Assembly (NCBI GenBank): GCA_017881905.1 | Contig: JADGQI010000121.1 | Span: forward strand, 1 to 44,875 | Source: Chloroflexota bacterium | GTDB lineage: Bacteria > Chloroflexota > Limnocylindria > Limnocylindrales > CSP1-4 | Reading direction: 5' to 3' | DNA: 44,875 nt | Shown: positions 14,920-25,105 of the stretch, one piece after another | Numbering within the stretch: the stretch's first letter is position 1 | Layout: every line of letters begins with the position of its first letter | Translations under genes and position numbers: made by a program | Notes under the pieces: model-generated | Told to the model about the DNA's origin: nothing | The model's database searches: none | The model's input: only the letters and a program-made list of their open reading frames with translations

Positions 14920-15501
14920 ATGACCGCGCGCACCGATCGGATCGACGAGCTCCTCCGCCAGGAGATCGGCTCGATCCTGACCCGTGAGGTGAAGGATCCG
15001 CGGGTCGGCTTCGCCACGGTCACCCGGGTCGAGACCACCCCGGATCTGGCCCATGCCCGGATCTGGATCAGCGTCATCGGCCAGCAGGGCGAGCGCAAGC
15101 AGACGATCGCCGCGCTCGAGCGTGCGATGCCGTTCGTCCGTCACGAGCTGGGCGCACGTCTCCGACTGCGGCGGATCCCGAACCTTCACGTCCACCTCGA
15201 CGACACCCTTGAGCGTGGGACGCGGATCCTCCACCTGCTCGACGAGCTCGAGGCCGGCCGGACGCCGGAGGACGAGCCGCCCGACGGCGAGACGCTGCCG
15301 ACCCCGATCGTCCGGATGCGCCACGAGGGCGACCTGACCGACGAGCCCCCACCGGCCGCCGAGCCTCCGTCGACCACCCGGGTCCGCTCGAGACGGCGGC
15401 CGGCCTTGCCGGGACAGACAGGCTCCGGTGCGACCAGGTCGACGCCGACGTCGAAGCCGCGGTCGGGCGCCCATGGCGGTGCCCGGAAGCAGAAGCGATG
15501 A
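14920..15501 (+). CDS. rbfA: Ribosome-binding factor A with basic tail
   Basis: RbfA helps mature the 3' end of 16S rRNA and the 30S subunit. The first 115 residues are the KH-like RbfA domain: RIDELLRQEIGSIL, EVKDPRVGFATVTRVE, LAHARIWISV and the L..RRIPNLHVHLDDTLERG motif. Residues 120-193 are an extra Pro/Arg/Lys-rich tail of low complexity. The ATG start lies 4 bases after the infB stop, and the gene overlaps the DHH phosphoesterase gene by ATGA, consistent with one operon. Confidence 0.95.
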   Translation: MTARTDRIDELLRQEIGSILTREVKDPRVGFATVTRVETTPDLAHARIWISVIGQQGERKQTIAALERAMPFVRHELGARLRLRRIPNLHVHLDDTLERGTRILHLLDELEAGRTPEDEPPDGETLPTPIVRMRHEGDLTDEPPPAAEPPSTTRVRSRRRPALPGQTGSGATRSTPTSKPRSGAHGGARKQKR

Positions 15502-16517
15502 CCGTCGACCTGTCGCCCTGGGTCTCGGGCGTGCCCGACGCCGTCGTGGACGTGCTCTCGACCGCCCGCGAGGTTCTGGTCGTCAGCCACGAGAACCCGG
15601 ACGCCGACACCCTCGGCGCCTCGCTCGCGATCGCGCTCCTGGTGGAGTCCCGCGGTGGCCGGGCCAGCTCGGTCTGCACGGACCCGCCGCCCGCGCTGTA
15701 CGCCTTCATGCCCGGGATCGATCGCGTCCGGACCGATCCGGACCCGGAACGGCGCTACGACCTGCTCGTGATGGTCGACTGTGGGTCACTCGACCGGGTC
15801 GGCGCCGTTCGCCACCGGCACCGCGCCCTATTCGCCGCCGTGCCGACGGTCGTGATCGACCACCACGTCTCGAACGAAGGGGGCGGCGCGACCGACTGGA
15901 TCGACCCCGGCGCCGCGGCGACGTGCGAGATGGTGACGCTGCTGGCCGCCCGGATGGCCGTCCCGCTGACCGCGGGGGAGGGGAGCCTGGCGGAGGCGCT
16001 GATGGCCGGCATCGTGATGGACACGGCGACGTTCGCCCACCCGAATGCGACCCCTCGGACCCTGTCGGTCGCCGCGGCGCTCGTCGAGGCGGGTGCGCCG
16101 CTCAGCGAGATCTCCCGACGGCTGTATCGGTCGAAGCCGGATTCGCAGCTCCGCCTGTTCGGCCGGGTCCTCCACCGACTCGAGGCGGTCGACGGGGGCC
16201 GAGTCGTCTGGTCGACCCTGACCGACGCGGATCTCGTCGCGACCGGTGCCGCCGCGGCGCACTCGGAAGGGATCATCGATCTCCTGTCCCAGGCCGACCA
16301 GGCCGAGGTCACGATCGTGTTCAAGGAGCAGGGCTCCGCGACGCGCATCAGCGTCCGGACGAAGTCGGGCGGCGTCGACGCGACGGTCCTGACCGGCACG
16401 TACGGTGGCGGCGGGCATGCCCGGGCCGCCGGGGCGACGATCCCGCTCCCGATGGCCGAGGCCCAGGAGGCGGTGCTCCAGGTCGCGCGGCGACTGGCCG
16501 CCGCGGTCGACCGGTGA
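15498..16517 (+). CDS. nrnA: DHH-family phosphoesterase (NrnA-like oligoribonuclease / pAp phosphatase)
   Basis: NrnA-type enzymes degrade 2-5 nt RNA fragments and dephosphorylate pAp. The 339-residue protein has the DHH domain first: SHENPDADTLGASLAI, VDCGSLDRVGAV, VIDHHVSNEG and GIVMDTATFAHPNATPRTL. A C-terminal DHHA1 domain ends in GTYGGGGHARAAGATI. This fits NrnA in length and in its classic place between rbfA and truB, rather than RecJ or a c-di-AMP phosphodiesterase with extra domains. It overlaps both neighbours, so expression is coupled to infB-truB. With the exonuclease-carrying PNPase nearby, the region encodes several enzymes able to finish RNA decay. Confidence 0.9.
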   Translation: MTVDLSPWVSGVPDAVVDVLSTAREVLVVSHENPDADTLGASLAIALLVESRGGRASSVCTDPPPALYAFMPGIDRVRTDPDPERRYDLLVMVDCGSLDRVGAVRHRHRALFAAVPTVVIDHHVSNEGGGATDWIDPGAAATCEMVTLLAARMAVPLTAGEGSLAEALMAGIVMDTATFAHPNATPRTLSVAAALVEAGAPLSEISRRLYRSKPDSQLRLFGRVLHRLEAVDGGRVVWSTLTDADLVATGAAAAHSEGIIDLLSQADQAEVTIVFKEQGSATRISVRTKSGGVDATVLTGTYGGGGHARAAGATIPLPMAEAQEAVLQVARRLAAAVDR

Positions 16518-18389: not shown

Positions 18390-18659
18390 GTGCCGCTCGT
18401 GCGGGAACAGAAGCAACAGGTCATCGGTGCGTTTGCCGTCAAGGACGGCGACACCGGATCCCCGGAAGTCCAGATCGCGCTCCTGACCGAGCGGATCAAG
18501 GAGCTGACGGCACACCTGAGAAGCTTTCCCAAGGACAATCACTCCCGCCGCGGCCTCCTCAAGCTCGTCGGTCAGCGTCGCCGCCTTCTTGCCTATCTGA
18601 TCAAGAAGGACAACGCCCGCTACCGCACCGTCATCGGACGGTTGGGACTCCGCCGCTAG
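18390..18659 (+). CDS. rpsO: 30S ribosomal protein uS15
   Basis: Primary 16S rRNA-binding protein of the small subunit platform. The 89 residues match the family length and contain the diagnostic [38 protein letters not shown] and [12 protein letters not shown] blocks. The GTG start follows a GGAGG site. In most bacteria rpsO precedes pnp, as here, and both are probably read from the TTGCCG-TATCCT promoter. Confidence 0.98.
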
Positions 18660-18697: not shown

Positions 18698-18776
18698 TCT
18701 CGCGTCCGACACCGCACCGGCGGGCCACGCGCCCGCAAGGTCGCTCCTCCTGCACGATAAGGAGGAACAGAACCCC

Positions 18777-21359
18777 GTGCCACACACCTTCGAGATCGAG
18801 TTCGGCGGTCGTCCGCTGATCATCGAGACCGGCAAGCTCGCTCGTCTTGCCGGCGGCGCCGTGACCGTTCGCTACGGCGACACCCTGGTCCTCGGGACGG
18901 CCAACCGGTCCGATCCCCGACCCGGCCTCGACTTCTTCCCGCTGACGGTGGAGTTCGAGGAGCGGATGTACGCCGCAGGCAAGATCCCCGGCGGCTTCAT
19001 CAAGCGCGAGGCGCGCGCGTCCGAAGCGGCCACGCTGGCCGCCCGGCTGACCGATCGCCCGATCCGCCCACTCTTCCCCGAGGGCTACAAGGACGACATC
19101 CAGCTCGTCGTGACCGTCCTGTCGACCGACCAGGAGAACGAGCCCGACGTCCTGGGCACCGTCGCCGCGTCGGCCGCCCTGACGATCAGCGAGATCCCGT
19201 TCGCCGGCCCCGTCGGTGCGGTGCGCGTCGGTCGGATCGACGGCGAGTTCGTGGTCAACCCGACCTTCACGGAGCTCGCCGATTCCGAGCTCGACCTGAT
19301 CGTGTCCGGCACCCGTGACGCGATCATGATGGTCGAGGCTGGCGCCAAGCTGTTGCCCGAGGACGTGATGGCCGAAGCCATCCTGTTCGGTCATCGCGCG
19401 CTCCAGCCCCTGATCGACATCCAGGAGCAGCTCCGCGAGGCCGCGGGGAAGCCCAAGTCGACCCCGTTCCTCGAGGCCGGCACCGGTTCGGTGCTCGACT
19501 TCACGAAGGCGGTCGCCGCCGGCGCCGAGTTCGTCGTCGTGGACGTCGAGACGACCGGCACGGACCCGAAGATGGCCGACCTCGTCGAGGTCGCGGCCGT
19601 CAAGGTCAAGAACGGCAAGATCGTCGACCGCTGGTCGACCCTGGTCAACCCCGGCCGGCCGATCCTCGGCCACCAGATGCATGGGATCACCGACGCCGAC
19701 GTCAAGAAGGCGCCGAGCCCGGCCGAGGCTGCCAAGCAGACGCTCGCGTTCGTCGGCGAGTCGACGATCGTCGGCCATTCGGTCGGGTTCGATCTGGGCT
19801 TCCTGATCGCCGCCCTCGGTGACGGGACGACCGTCGACCAGGGCCGCTATCTCGACACGCTGGTCATCGCCCGAGAAGGCTATCCGGACCTCGAGAACTA
19901 CAAGCTCCCGACGCTGTCGAACTTCTTCGGGATCGAGCTCGCCCAAGCCCATCGGGCGGCGCCCGACGCCGAGGCGACCGCGAACCTGCTGATCTGGTTC
20001 GCCAACGACCTGCCCGGTCGGATCGCGGCGCTCCGCGAGGGCATCGCGAGCTCCGTCCGGTCCACCCGGACCGGCGGCGACGCGAAGGCCATCCTCGAGG
20101 CGGCCAAGCGCGAGGCGCGGGTCAGCAAGGCGCTGTACAACCTCGTCTACAAGAAGACCTGCCGCGAGCTCGCGCTCGACGAGGGCATCCGGATGGACGG
20201 CCGCGGTCTGACCGAACTGCGCCAGATCTCGGTCGAGGTCGGACTCCTACCGCGCGCCCATGGCTCCGGCCTGTTCACCCGCGGTGAGACGCAGGTCATG
20301 ACGATCGCCACGCTCGGGTCGTCGTCGGACGTCCAGCGGATCGACACGATCAGCCCGAAGACCGAGAAGCGCTACCTCCACCACTACAACTTCCCGCCGT
20401 ATTCCACCGGCGAGAACAAGCCGATGCGGGGGCCGAGCCGCCGCGACATCGGGCACGGCAACCTCGCCGAGCGCGCGCTGATCCCCGTCCTCCCCAAGCA
20501 GGAGGATTTCCCCTACGTCATCCGGCTCGTGTCGGAGTGCATGTCGTCCAACGGGTCGACCTCGATGGCCTCGACCTGCGGCTCGACGCTGGCCCTGATG
20601 GACGCCGGCGTGCCGATCTCCGCACCGGTCGCCGGCGCGGCGATGGGCCTGATCAGCGAGCCCGACGGCCGGTTCGTCGTCCTGACCGACATCCTCGGCA
20701 AGGAGGACTCCGTCGGCGACATGGACTTCAAGGTGACGGGCACCCGCGACGGGATCACCGCCCTGCAGATGGACATCAAGGTCCAGGGCATCAACGAGGC
20801 GATCATCCGAGGCGGTCTCAAGCAGGCCCTCGCGGCCCGTCTCGAGATCCTCGACAAGATGGCCGAGGTCATGCCCGAGGCCCGCCAGGGGATGAGCGAC
20901 TTCGCGCCGCGCATCGTCACGATCAAGATCAACCCCGAGAAGATCCGCGAGATCATCGGCAAGGGTGGATCGATGATCCGCAAGATCCAGGAAGAGACGA
21001 GCACCGAGATCAACGTCGAGGACGACGGCAGCGTCGAGATCGCGGCCGTGTCCGGCGAGAACAGCCGCAAGGCCATCGCCTGGATCGAGTCGCTCACCCG
21101 CGACGTCGAGATCGGCTCGCTCTACCTCGGCAAGGTCACCCGGATCATGGGCTTCGGCGCGTTCGTCGAGATCCTGCCGGGCAAGGAAGGCCTCGTCCGC
21201 ATCGGCGAGCTCGCCGACTACCACGTGCCGACCGTCGAGGACGTCGTGTCCGTCGGCGACGAGGTGATGGTCGTCGTGACCGAGGTCGACCGCCAGGGTC
21301 GGATCAACCTGTCGCGCAAGGCGGCCATGCAGCGTCACCTGGCCAAGGAACCGGTCTGA
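18777..21359 (+). CDS. pnp: Polynucleotide phosphorylase with an inserted DEDDh 3'-5' exonuclease domain
   Basis: PNPase is the trimeric phosphorolytic 3'-5' exoribonuclease and RNA tailing enzyme. GTG 18777, behind AAGGAGG, gives 860 residues instead of about 700. Order: RNase PH domain 1 (about 5-140), the start of the helical linker (about 200-226), an inserted DnaQ/PolC-like exonuclease (about 250-412; D256, E258, D339, H392, D397), the rest of the linker (about 415-470), RNase PH domain 2 (about 473-700), KH (about 712-775, IGKGGSMI) and S1 (about 779-850). The phosphorolytic site is intact: FTRGETQ at 500-506, SNGSTSMAST at 591-600, and D644, D650 and K652. The frame is unbroken through both junctions with no change in base composition. 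It lies with rpsO as usual. Two active 3' exonuclease activities in one protein is inference. Confidence 0.97.
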   Translation: MPHTFEIEFGGRPLIIETGKLARLAGGAVTVRYGDTLVLGTANRSDPRPGLDFFPLTVEFEERMYAAGKIPGGFIKREARASEAATLAARLTDRPIRPLFPEGYKDDIQLVVTVLSTDQENEPDVLGTVAASAALTISEIPFAGPVGAVRVGRIDGEFVVNPTFTELADSELDLIVSGTRDAIMMVEAGAKLLPEDVMAEAILFGHRALQPLIDIQEQLREAAGKPKSTPFLEAGTGSVLDFTKAVAAGAEFVVVDVETTGTDPKMADLVEVAAVKVKNGKIVDRWSTLVNPGRPILGHQMHGITDADVKKAPSPAEAAKQTLAFVGESTIVGHSVGFDLGFLIAALGDGTTVDQGRYLDTLVIAREGYPDLENYKLPTLSNFFGIELAQAHRAAPDAEATANLLIWFANDLPGRIAALREGIASSVRSTRTGGDAKAILEAAKREARVSKALYNLVYKKTCRELALDEGIRMDGRGLTELRQISVEVGLLPRAHGSGLFTRGETQVMTIATLGSSSDVQRIDTISPKTEKRYLHHYNFPPYSTGENKPMRGPSRRDIGHGNLAERALIPVLPKQEDFPYVIRLVSECMSSNGSTSMASTCGSTLALMDAGVPISAPVAGAAMGLISEPDGRFVVLTDILGKEDSVGDMDFKVTGTRDGITALQMDIKVQGINEAIIRGGLKQALAARLEILDKMAEVMPEARQGMSDFAPRIVTIKINPEKIREIIGKGGSMIRKIQEETSTEINVEDDGSVEIAAVSGENSRKAIAWIESLTRDVEIGSLYLGKVTRIMGFGAFVEILPGKEGLVRIGELADYHVPTVEDVVSVGDEVMVVVTEVDRQGRINLSRKAAMQRHLAKEPV
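19524..20012 (+). other. Inserted DnaQ-like DEDDh exonuclease domain within PNPase
   Basis: Residues about 250-412 of the pnp product. Motif I is VVVDVETTGTD (D256, E258); motif II is VGHSVGFDLGFL (D339); motif III is HRAAPDAEAT (H392, D397). Intervening segments such as EVAAVKVKNGKIVDRWSTL, NPGRPI, HGITD and NYKLPTLSNFFGIE are characteristic of the PolC/epsilon/DinG exonuclease branch rather than of oligoribonuclease. The insertion point is in the all-helical linker, just after QLREAAGKPK, so both RNase PH domains are left whole. Confidence 0.93.
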
Positions 21360-23437: not shown

Positions 23438-25105
23438 ATGACGTCATCCAACCATCCGCTCCGGATCATCCCGCTCGGCGGGGTGGGCGAGATCGGCAAG
23501 AACATGTACGTGTTCGAATACGGCGACGACATCGTCGTGATCGACTGCGGCCTGATGTTCCCCGACGAGGAGATGTTCGGCATCGACCTGGTCATCCCCG
23601 ACATCACCTATCTCGTCGAGCGCCGCAAGAACGTCCGTGCGTTCCTCATCACCCATGCCCACGAGGACCATGTCGGCGGCCTGCCGTACGTCCTGCCCGA
23701 GTTCCCGGGCGTCCCGGTCTACGCCTCGACCCTTGCCCGCGGCCTGCTCGGCAACAAGGTCAAGGAGCACAAGCTCCACAACAACCCGCTGGTCGCGCTC
23801 GAGCCCGGGGACGATGTCCAGATCGGCCCGTTCGGCGTCGTCCCGTTCCGGATCGGTCACTCGATCCCCGATGCGATGGGGATCGCGCTCCGGACCCCCG
23901 TCGGGACCGTCGTCCACACCGGCGACTTCAAGTTCGACCACACCCCGGTGGACGGCCGGCTGTCCGACTTCCACATCCTCGCCCGCCTCGGTGAGGAAGG
24001 CGTCATCTGCCTCCTGTCCGACTCGACCCGCGCTGAGAACCCCGGTTACACGCCGTCCGAACGGACGGTCGGCGAGGCGTTCCGTGAGATCATGGAGCCG
24101 CTCGAGGGTCGGGTCATCGTGGCGACCTTCGCCAGCAACATCGCCCGGGTCCAGCAGGTCCTCGATGCGGCCGCGTCGTTCGACCGCAAGGTCGCGGTCA
24201 TCGGACGCTCGATGGAGCAGAACTTCCGGATCGCCAGCGATCTCGGGTACCTCAAGTACCCACCGTCCCAGATCGTGTCGAAGGACCGGATCAACGACAC
24301 CCCGGCCGACAAGCTCGTCATCTGCACGACCGGTGCCCAGGGCGAGCCGATGGCCGGCCTGGCCCGGATGGCCAATCGCGACCACCGGTTCGTCGAGATC
24401 CAGCCGGGCGACACCGTGATCGTCAGCGCCAGCCCGATCCCCGGCAACGAGGAGTACGTCAGCCGGACGATCGACAACCTGTTCAAGGCCGGAGCGAACG
24501 TCTTCTATCACACGATCAAACGCGCGCACGTCTCCGGTCATGCCAGCCAGGAAGAGCTCAAGCTGATGCTCGGGCTGACCAAGCCGAAGTACTTCATCCC
24601 GATGCACGGCGAGTTCCGGATGCAGGTCCAGCACGGCCGGCTCGCGATCGAGACCGGTGTCGCGCCGGAGAACGTGTTCATCATCGAGAACGGCATCCCG
24701 ATCGAGATCTCGGAGGACGGCTCGGCCAGGCGGGGCCTGCCCGTGACGGCCGGCTACGTGTATGTCGACGGCCTGTCGGTCGGCGAGGTCGGCGATGTCG
24801 TCCTGCGCGATCGGAAGGCGCTGGCCAACGACGGCATGTTCATGATCGTCGTCACGGTCGACAAGCAGACCGGCTCGATCATCGGGCGACCCGAGATCAT
24901 CACCCGTGGGTTCGTCCACGGGAACGAACAGGACCCGATCATGGGCGGGGCGATCGAGCGGATCGTCAAGTCCGTCGAGAACCCTGGCGAGCACATCAGC
25001 GAGATCGGCCTGCTCAAGGTCCAGATCAAGGACGGCGTCTCGCGCTATCTGTATGAGCAGACGAAGCGCCGACCGATGGTCTTCCCGGTCGTGGTCGAGG
25101 TCTGA
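23438..25105 (+). CDS. rnj: Ribonuclease J
   Basis: RNase J is a zinc metallo-beta-lactamase/beta-CASP enzyme with 5'-3' exonuclease and endonuclease activity, central to mRNA decay and rRNA maturation in bacteria lacking RNase E. The metal motif HAHEDH is at 73-78. It is followed by HTGDFKFDHTPVDG, DSTRAENPGYTPSE, the beta-CASP segment ending in SGHASQEELKLM, and a C-terminal domain finishing RRPMVFPVVVEV. The 555 residues are normal. The ATG follows AAGGA. It lies 20 bases after the glycosylase gene and 3 bases before ftsK. Together with PNPase and NrnA, it means both 5' and 3' RNA decay enzymes are encoded within about 10 kb. Confidence 0.97.
   Translation: MTSSNHPLRIIPLGGVGEIGKNMYVFEYGDDIVVIDCGLMFPDEEMFGIDLVIPDITYLVERRKNVRAFLITHAHEDHVGGLPYVLPEFPGVPVYASTLARGLLGNKVKEHKLHNNPLVALEPGDDVQIGPFGVVPFRIGHSIPDAMGIALRTPVGTVVHTGDFKFDHTPVDGRLSDFHILARLGEEGVICLLSDSTRAENPGYTPSERTVGEAFREIMEPLEGRVIVATFASNIARVQQVLDAAASFDRKVAVIGRSMEQNFRIASDLGYLKYPPSQIVSKDRINDTPADKLVICTTGAQGEPMAGLARMANRDHRFVEIQPGDTVIVSASPIPGNEEYVSRTIDNLFKAGANVFYHTIKRAHVSGHASQEELKLMLGLTKPKYFIPMHGEFRMQVQHGRLAIETGVAPENVFIIENGIPIEISEDGSARRGLPVTAGYVYVDGLSVGEVGDVVLRDRKALANDGMFMIVVTVDKQTGSIIGRPEIITRGFVHGNEQDPIMGGAIERIVKSVENPGEHISEIGLLKVQIKDGVSRYLYEQTKRRPMVFPVVVEV

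Follow-up and report, generated by a model that had tools for sequence, protein, structure and literature searches.

Can a bacterial PNPase, an enzyme that degrades RNA by phosphorolysis, carry a second exonuclease of a different chemistry within its own chain? The question is raised by a gene at positions 18777-21359 on the forward strand of the window, i.e. the whole 44,875-nucleotide stretch analysed here (contig JADGQI010000121.1, positions 1 to 44,875, of the Chloroflexota assembly GCA_017881905.1). The initial annotation, made from the sequence alone, described an 860-codon PNPase frame with a complete DEDDh exonuclease built into its core, and this observation is confirmed. The GTG-started frame is uninterrupted and is preceded by a Shine-Dalgarno-like AGGAGG at 18760-18765. 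Pfam finds RNase_PH and RNase_PH_C twice each, RNase_T (PF00929) at residues 253-405 (E 7e-26), KH_1, and S1, and NCBIfam TIGR03591 names the protein PNPase with 930 bits against a cut-off of 525.

The first RNase PH domain (residues 1-228, 18777-19460) is followed by a poorly conserved linker (residues 229-250, 19461-19526), in which 2 of 22 columns are near-invariant and model confidence is 64-66 around residues 221-240. The inserted DEDDh 3'-5' exonuclease domain (residues 251-412, 19527-20012) has its best PDB sequence matches in PolC (2p1j, 3e-23) and DinG (8zef, 1.6e-16). Its motif I (D256 and E258) lies at 19542-19550, motif II (D339) at 19791-19793, and motif III (H392 to D397) at 19950-19967; these five residues align with D10, E12, D95, H149, and D154 of the DinG chain 8zef, which are given as the catalytic residues of S. 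aureus DinG (PMC12345164). Then follow the rest of the helical linker domain (residues 413-470, 20013-20186), the second, catalytic RNase PH domain (residues 471-700, 20187-20876), the KH domain (residues 711-771, 20907-21089), and the S1 domain (residues 777-848, 21105-21320). D644, D650, and K652 (20706-20732) align with the catalytic D486, D492, and K494 of E. coli PNPase (7ogk), and they are present in 50 of 50 fused loci from 49 genomes.

Is the exonuclease inserted into the helical domain, or does it replace it? Replacement was considered first, since the all-helical linker domain is interrupted and PF03726 is no longer recognised above its cut-off, matching only at model positions 50-80 of 81 (E 0.12). 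However, E. coli PNPase spans the same linker in 67 aa (230 to 298) against 227 aa here (227 to 455), a net gain of 160 aa, which is the size of one DEDDh domain. It is therefore an insertion at the start of the helical linker, although the rest of the helical domain is diverged. Monomer models of this kind of protein from two of the fused families, f1 and f4, have mean pLDDT of 87.4 and 87.3, and the predicted fold of the f1 protein still matches PNPase structures.

An assembly or binning artefact could be suspected, since the genome of the window is fragmented (172 contigs, 78% complete), but this explanation is refuted by the distribution of the gene. Of 148 surveyed genomes from three families (f1, f2, and f4) of soil and freshwater Chloroflexota, 116 show the joined gene in one alignment, while 19 show only parts and 13 show no pnp. 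None of 29 genomes from the two other families of the class (f3 and f5), and none of 345 genomes sampled elsewhere in the phylum, show it; in the phylum sample, searched at E up to 1e-22, proteins from six of the 90 matching genomes outside the class were scanned by Pfam. Fused PNPases form one clade (support 100/99) on a tree of the PNPase core with 24 rows. The condition under which the initial annotation would have been refuted, that related genomes have a normal PNPase and a separate exonuclease gene, does occur, but in f3 and f5, which branch outside the fused clade; it therefore dates the event and does not refute it.

Fusions were also looked for outside these families. A scan of a wider set of genome contigs returned at least 80 loci, of which four are fused; these four are all Chloroflexi and are not additional evidence, since L072 and L073 hold the same DNA as genomes G024 and G161 of the survey, and L074 and L077 agree in contig size and match positions with G091 and G125. 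The other 76 match over the exonuclease, some with stretches reaching out to residues 146-466, in frames that by their length look like PolC, DinG, GIY-YIG, or solo proteins; 7 of the 76 were scanned by Pfam, and independent fusions elsewhere are not excluded. Among plasmids, 272 records matched, none of them covering 80% of the query.

Is the inserted domain likely to be a working nuclease? In 116 fused sequences, D256, E258, D339, and H392 never change, and D397 is kept in 113, the other three genomes having His at this position. These 116 sequences include G055, part of which is read as X, and leave out G035, so that they are not exactly the 116 genomes of the survey; L070 was dropped as identical to L022. 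Overall, the domain is more variable than the PNPase parts, with 26 of 162 columns near-invariant against 130 of 230 in the second RNase PH domain, but all five catalytic residues are among the 26. This alignment of 50 loci did not include L031 (same as L001), L041 (frame broken between the halves), or L042 (which starts at residue 108). The dN/dS of the exonuclease is below 1 in the 25 listed pairs with the lowest core dS. A structural or regulatory domain with little or no nuclease activity could be suggested by the greater variability and by the D397H change in three genomes; however, the conservation of the active site and the dN/dS values make this very unlikely. Metal-dependent 3'-5' hydrolysis itself is inferred from sequence, as are phosphorolysis and the trimeric ring on the PNPase side.

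What might the second site do? The initial annotation proposed that a trimer with three hydrolytic sites could finish oligonucleotides, degrade DNA, trim ends on which PNPase cannot start, or switch to hydrolysis when phosphate is low. This interpretation is partly supported: the architecture, the intact active sites, the insertion in the helical linker, a predicted fold that still matches PNPase, and the absence of a previous description in the literature searched are upheld, whereas hydrolysis, DNA substrates, a phosphate switch, and trimer formation remain conjectural. The finishing of oligonucleotides as the driving function is weakened by the gene context. The pnp gene lies downstream of rpsO (S15, 18390-18659, forward strand; TIGR00952 over its cut-off), and S15 is also upstream in the nine fused or plain relatives for which positions were obtained. 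An NrnA-like DHH protein is encoded in the same cluster at 15498-16517 (forward strand), with DHH over its cut-off and the NrnA model at 88 bits, below its cut-off of 350, so that finishing oligonucleotides is not an obvious gap. DHH proteins were found in 84 of 84 genomes searched at a completeness setting of 85, a set which also included the 78% complete genome of the window; some genomes had one DHH match only, and RecJ and NrnA were told apart only by frame length. RNase J (TIGR00649 over its cut-off) is the third gene downstream of pnp, at 23438-25105 (forward strand).

Three features of the lineage were not part of the initial annotation: the single origin, the absence of ExoDinG where the fusion is present, and the absence of RNase R/II. 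The RNB family was found in 0 of 118 genomes, whereas 11 of 14 controls gave a match. The DinG helicase domain (Helicase_C_2) is present in 28 of 29 f3/f5 genomes, and the four proteins checked carry the DEDDh domain on it, but it is present in only 2 of 148 f1/f2/f4 genomes. Exactly one RNase_T match was found in 102 of the 128 f1/f2/f4 genomes with any, and in 24 of 28 f3/f5 genomes; the other 26 of the 128 have a second match, so the inserted domain is often, but not always, the only one. ExoDinG shares the DEDDh family with the insert, with five residues in the same order and at near-equal spacing, but there the domain is N-terminal to an SF2 helicase, while here no helicase domain is found in the protein and the exonuclease is nested in PNPase. 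ExoDinG may be a functional predecessor, which is an inference, and the exchange is one evolutionary event, so that the correlation has an effective n of 1.

Descent of the insert from the DinG of the class itself is neither shown nor rejected. The exonuclease tree does not place the insert next to the f3/f5 DinG domains, but this grouping is not rejected (AU p 0.361), and by bit score the domain is closer to PolC and GIY-YIG proteins than to DinG. Labels in this tree were set by frame length, and 21 of the 62 unfused rows were scanned by Pfam: L079, labelled solo, and L111 have GIY-YIG, L081 is PolC, and L110, labelled UvrC-like, showed no GIY-YIG at that cut-off. In one alignment (A3), the last residues of the exonuclease fragments were misplaced near column 715. 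PolC, a replicative polymerase and not an RNA-decay enzyme, offers a precedent for a DEDDh domain nested inside another domain, as in L086, where PHP (299-648) surrounds RNase_T (385-539).

The affinity to PolC and DinG raises the possibility that the domain is active mainly as a DNA or RNA-DNA hybrid exonuclease for repair or R-loops, tethered to PNPase, which has roles in DNA repair in other bacteria. B. subtilis DinG prefers ssDNA, cuts ssRNA only poorly, with Mn2+, and degrades the RNA strand of RNA-DNA hybrids (PMC12525004), Listeria DinG also prefers DNA in vitro, and no second RNase_T domain was found in 102 of the 128 genomes. On the other hand, the domain is held in a protein with KH and S1 domains at an rpsO-pnp locus, S. 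aureus DinG acts on RNA (PMC12345164), and Listeria DinG is a 3'-5' exoribonuclease on unprocessed rRNA which attacks a pre-23S stem without a toehold (PMC12774634). This reading is possible but appears unlikely.

Another possibility is that the domain works on its own as a co-located second nuclease, without handover between the sites, the fusion giving only a fixed ratio and shared KH/S1 binding. The poorly conserved, lower-confidence linker on the N side agrees with this, as does the f4 model, in which the last exonuclease helix is broken before the helical domain. In the model of the window's protein, however, that helix runs on into the helical domain (residues 394-431), and the insertion site is beside the active-site pore, where a free tether could have been at either end of the chain; in E. 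coli the helical domain lies on the ring face opposite S1/KH and lines a pore to the active site (PMC2723993). Independent action is considered doubtful.

The explanation preferred here, though only tentatively and with somewhat less than even confidence, can be described as follows. The gene would make a PNPase with two 3'-5' exonuclease sites of different chemistry: the ordinary phosphorolytic site in the ring, and a metal-dependent hydrolytic DEDDh site in the helical domain, on the ring face opposite KH/S1. This architecture suggests a bacterial parallel to the two-chemistry RNA exosome of eukaryotes. In this view the DEDDh domain was gained once, in the ancestor of three families of what is probably class Limnocylindria, became the main and often only DEDDh exonuclease of the lineage, and took over the trimming or quality-control work done in sister families by the DEDDh domain of ExoDinG. 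The KH/S1 end would bring RNA 3' ends to the enzyme; PNPase would degrade single-stranded stretches, and the hydrolytic site would trim ends that PNPase handles badly, such as short or base-paired 3' ends of rRNA and tRNA precursors, in cells without RNase R. The architecture, the predicted fold, the conservation, the single origin, and the failure to find the ExoDinG helicase domain and RNase R/II rest on the analysis itself, while activity, RNA as the main substrate, the replacement of ExoDinG, and cooperation between the sites are inferred.

A bolder scheme, which is not excluded but is considered unlikely, suggests a single-chain bacterial counterpart of the exosome: a PNPase trimer carrying three hydrolytic DEDDh sites around the active-site pore on the face opposite KH/S1, in which one RNA is worked on by both sites, so that the enzyme could clear structured or short 3' ends and keep degrading RNA when phosphate is scarce. 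It would have evolved by moving the ExoDinG quality-control function onto PNPase in a lineage without RNase R. In the eukaryotic exosome, in particular that of plants, where Exo9 retains phosphorolysis (PMC5735172), a PNPase-like ring works with hydrolytic exoribonucleases. Rrp6 among these is DEDD-type; the subunits are separate, and Rrp44 has another nuclease fold, whereas here the domains are on one bacterial polypeptide.

Compared with bacterial PNPases such as those of E. coli (7ogk) and C. crescentus (4aim; TIGR03591/PRK11824), the protein shares the two RNase PH domains, KH, S1, the Asp/Asp/Lys site, and the locus beside rpsO, but differs by the 162-residue exonuclease. PNPase is a widely conserved RNA-decay enzyme, and no report of a second catalytic nuclease domain inside it was found in the literature searched. 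The lineage is also a natural experiment, since RNase R/II was not found in the class, the DinG helicase domain is missing from nearly all genomes of the families with the fusion, and related families offer the unfused state, which makes the role of the DinG-type DEDDh domain in RNA decay directly testable. If both sites are active, a bacterium has put phosphorolytic and hydrolytic decay into one polypeptide, independently of the eukaryotic exosome.

The open reading frame at 18777-21359 is uninterrupted from its GTG start to the stop and comprises 860 codons, with an AGGAGG motif at 18760-18765. Comparison with Pfam identified RNase_PH and RNase_PH_C twice each, RNase_T at residues 253-405 (E 7e-26), KH_1, and S1, and NCBIfam names the protein polyribonucleotide nucleotidyltransferase (930 bits over a cut-off of 525). 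The residues D256, E258, D339, H392, and D397 align with residues 10, 12, 95, 149, and 154 of the DinG chain 8zef, which are the catalytic residues given for Staphylococcus aureus DinG (PMC12345164). Residues D644, D650, and K652 align with the catalytic residues D486, D492, and K494 of E. coli PNPase. The same linker is crossed in 67 residues in E. coli and in 227 residues in this protein, a surplus of 160, so a domain was inserted and little was lost. The PF03726 model matches only over positions 50-80 of 81 at E 0.12. Therefore, the observation made in the initial annotation, that a DEDDh exonuclease is built into the core of a PNPase, holds.

To establish how widely the fusion occurs, 177 genomes of the class were surveyed, belonging to five families coded here as f1 (107 genomes), f2 (19), f3 (28), f4 (22), and f5 (1). 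A single alignment across the junction, at least from residue 199 to 477, was found in 116 genomes (87 of f1, 15 of f2, and 14 of f4) and in none of the 29 genomes of f3 and f5. Of the other 32 genomes of f1, f2, and f4, 19 show parts of the gene or a broken frame, several at contig ends, and 13 show no pnp at E 1e-15; one of these 13, an f4 genome (G176), is 92% complete, so that the absence there is unexplained. In the assemblies of two genomes (locus L041 of G014, and contig C23 of G084) the fused pnp is split over frames, which may reflect a frameshift or a sequencing error. Among the 78 of the 148 f1, f2, and f4 genomes that were searched with the whole protein, no plain PNPase was seen, one of these searches extending only to E 1.8e-4. 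In a sample of 400 genomes from the phylum, 43 have the spanning match and one has a partial match, all from f1, f2, and f4, while the 345 genomes outside the class have none, although 90 of them match over the exonuclease region. A scan of genome contigs yielded four fused loci titled Chloroflexi, which are records already counted and are not independent.

The five family codes fit the published families of the class Limnocylindria, in which an ancestral soil family, P2-11E, is followed by QHBO01 and then by the sister families CSP1-4 and Limnocylindraceae, the last having genomes of 1.3 Mbp compared with 2.4-3.2 Mbp for the others (PMC13212565). It is inferred from the branching order and the sizes of the genomes that f3, f4, f1, and f2 would be these four families in that order, with f5 left unmatched. 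The terms pnp, polynucleotide, and exonuclease do not occur in the main text of that paper.

A phylogenetic tree was constructed from PNPase core residues without the insert, using 17 fused proteins, three plain proteins of f3 and f5, and four from viral contigs. Fused proteins form one clade (support 100/99), which is split into f4 and f1 plus f2, with the plain proteins of f3 and f5 as the sister group. The PNPase genes found on IMG/VR contigs (loci L172-L178) could be phage-borne or could lie in host flanks. In a second tree of 80 exonuclease domains, the 18 inserted domains again form one clade (100/98), which is nearest to four solo DEDDh proteins of f1 (90/83) and lies in a weakly supported half that also holds most of the DinG sequences. 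Some f1 genomes carry an additional DEDDh protein (loci L046, L066, L067, and L068, with frames of 241-605 aa), and it is these that are nearest to the inserted domain on the tree, on long branches. A grouping of the inserted domains with the DinG domains of the class itself is neither favoured nor rejected (AU p 0.361). A profile of the inserted domain scores PolC (161.8 bits, locus L075) and a GIY-YIG protein (151.8 bits, L079) above DinG (139.1 bits, L120). PolC is also a precedent for nesting, since its DEDDh domain lies inside the PHP domain (locus L086).

In 116 fused sequences D256, E258, D339, and H392 never change, and D397 is Asp in 113. The three exceptions, in G025 and G074 of genus g26 (loci L016 and L219) and in G030 of genus g5 (L194), all have His at this position, which may represent a natural loss or change of hydrolysis. 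The domain is otherwise variable, with 26 of 162 columns near-invariant compared with 130 of 230 in the second RNase PH domain. All five catalytic residues are among the 26, an outcome with a chance of 7.5e-5 if columns were drawn at random. The dN/dS of the exonuclease lies between 0.04 and 0.66 in the 25 listed pairs and is often higher than in the core, although the pairs share genomes and are not independent.

Structure prediction with AlphaFold2 on a 27-row alignment gave a mean pLDDT of 87.4 and a pTM of 0.82, and the corresponding values for an f4 protein (locus L073) were 87.3 and 0.80. The 50 structures listed in a Foldseek comparison are all PNPases, with TM-scores by target length of 0.72 to 0.91. 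In the model of the protein encoded at 18777-21359 the last exonuclease helix runs on from residue 394 to 431 into the helical domain, whereas in the f4 model it is broken near residue 407, so a rigid joint is not certain. In E. coli the helical domain lies on the face opposite S1/KH and lines a pore to the active site, which is thought to affect access of phosphate and nucleoside diphosphates (PMC2723993). Therefore, it is inferred that the insert should sit beside the active-site end of the ring.

Literature searches, confined to open-licence articles and judged from their listings, showed no PNPase with an inserted DEDDh domain. PNPase and Chloroflex do not occur in the main text of a review of DinG-like proteins (PMC11981726), and no chain in the two lists of matches inspected joins both domains. 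The nearest published idea that was seen is the exosome, in which a PNPase-like ring works with hydrolytic nucleases and which in plants keeps phosphorolysis (PMC5735172).

By best NCBIfam match, the gene order at the locus is infB, rbfA, nrnA-like, truB, ribF, rpsO, pnp, asd, family 4 udg, RNase J, and ftsK, where the NrnA, RibF, and FtsK matches are below their cut-offs; the NrnA-like gene, at 15498-16517, encodes a DHH protein. S15 lies upstream of pnp in the nine fused and plain relatives for which positions were listed. The RNB family (RNase R/II) was found in none of 118 genomes searched at a completeness setting of 80, while 11 of 14 control genomes gave a match, and DHH proteins were found in 84 of 84 genomes. 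With RNase_T at E up to 1e-6, 156 of 177 genomes have a match, with exactly one in 102 of the 128 f1, f2, and f4 genomes that have a match and in 24 of the 28 from f3 and f5. In at least three of the 102 (G065, G066, and G008) the one match is not the fused domain, and in G053 it is unclear. The genome carrying the present locus has one match, the PNPase itself, although this genome is 78% complete and the rapid search may miss divergent members.

Helicase_C_2, the C-terminal domain of DinG, is present in 27 of 28 f3 genomes and in the single f5 genome (about 140-150 bits), but in only 2 of 148 f1, f2, and f4 genomes (83 bits on contig C161 of G015 and 78 bits on contig C27 of G034, both over the cut-off but of unidentified proteins). 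Four of four f3 and f5 proteins scanned (loci L043, L044, L167, and L045) carry RNase_T together with that helicase domain. So the unfused families keep a DEDDh domain on DinG, and the fused families keep it on PNPase.

Listeria DinG is a 3'-5' exonuclease on RNA and DNA, which removes unprocessed rRNA and works on a pre-23S stem without a toehold, though it prefers DNA in vitro (PMC12774634). S. aureus DinG is described as active on ssDNA and RNA (PMC12345164). Against an RNA role, B. subtilis DinG prefers ssDNA and cuts ssRNA only with Mn2+ and poorly (PMC12525004), and a function mainly on DNA or hybrids is the chief rival explanation, although it is considered less likely. The preferred, if still tentative, explanation is that the inserted domain is an active hydrolase that took over such a 3'-end trimming or quality-control role and works on RNA brought by KH/S1. 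The initial annotation had proposed that the enzyme adds hydrolytic activity to phosphorolysis, and this interpretation is partly supported, since what the analysis establishes is the architecture, its conservation, and its single origin, while the activity of either site, the substrate, and the takeover of a DinG role are inferred from sequence and by analogy. Overall, the fusion is a real and conserved enzyme architecture of single origin, which differs from PNPase by the DEDDh exonuclease inserted in its linker, and which on present evidence is likely, by inference only, to have dual activity.
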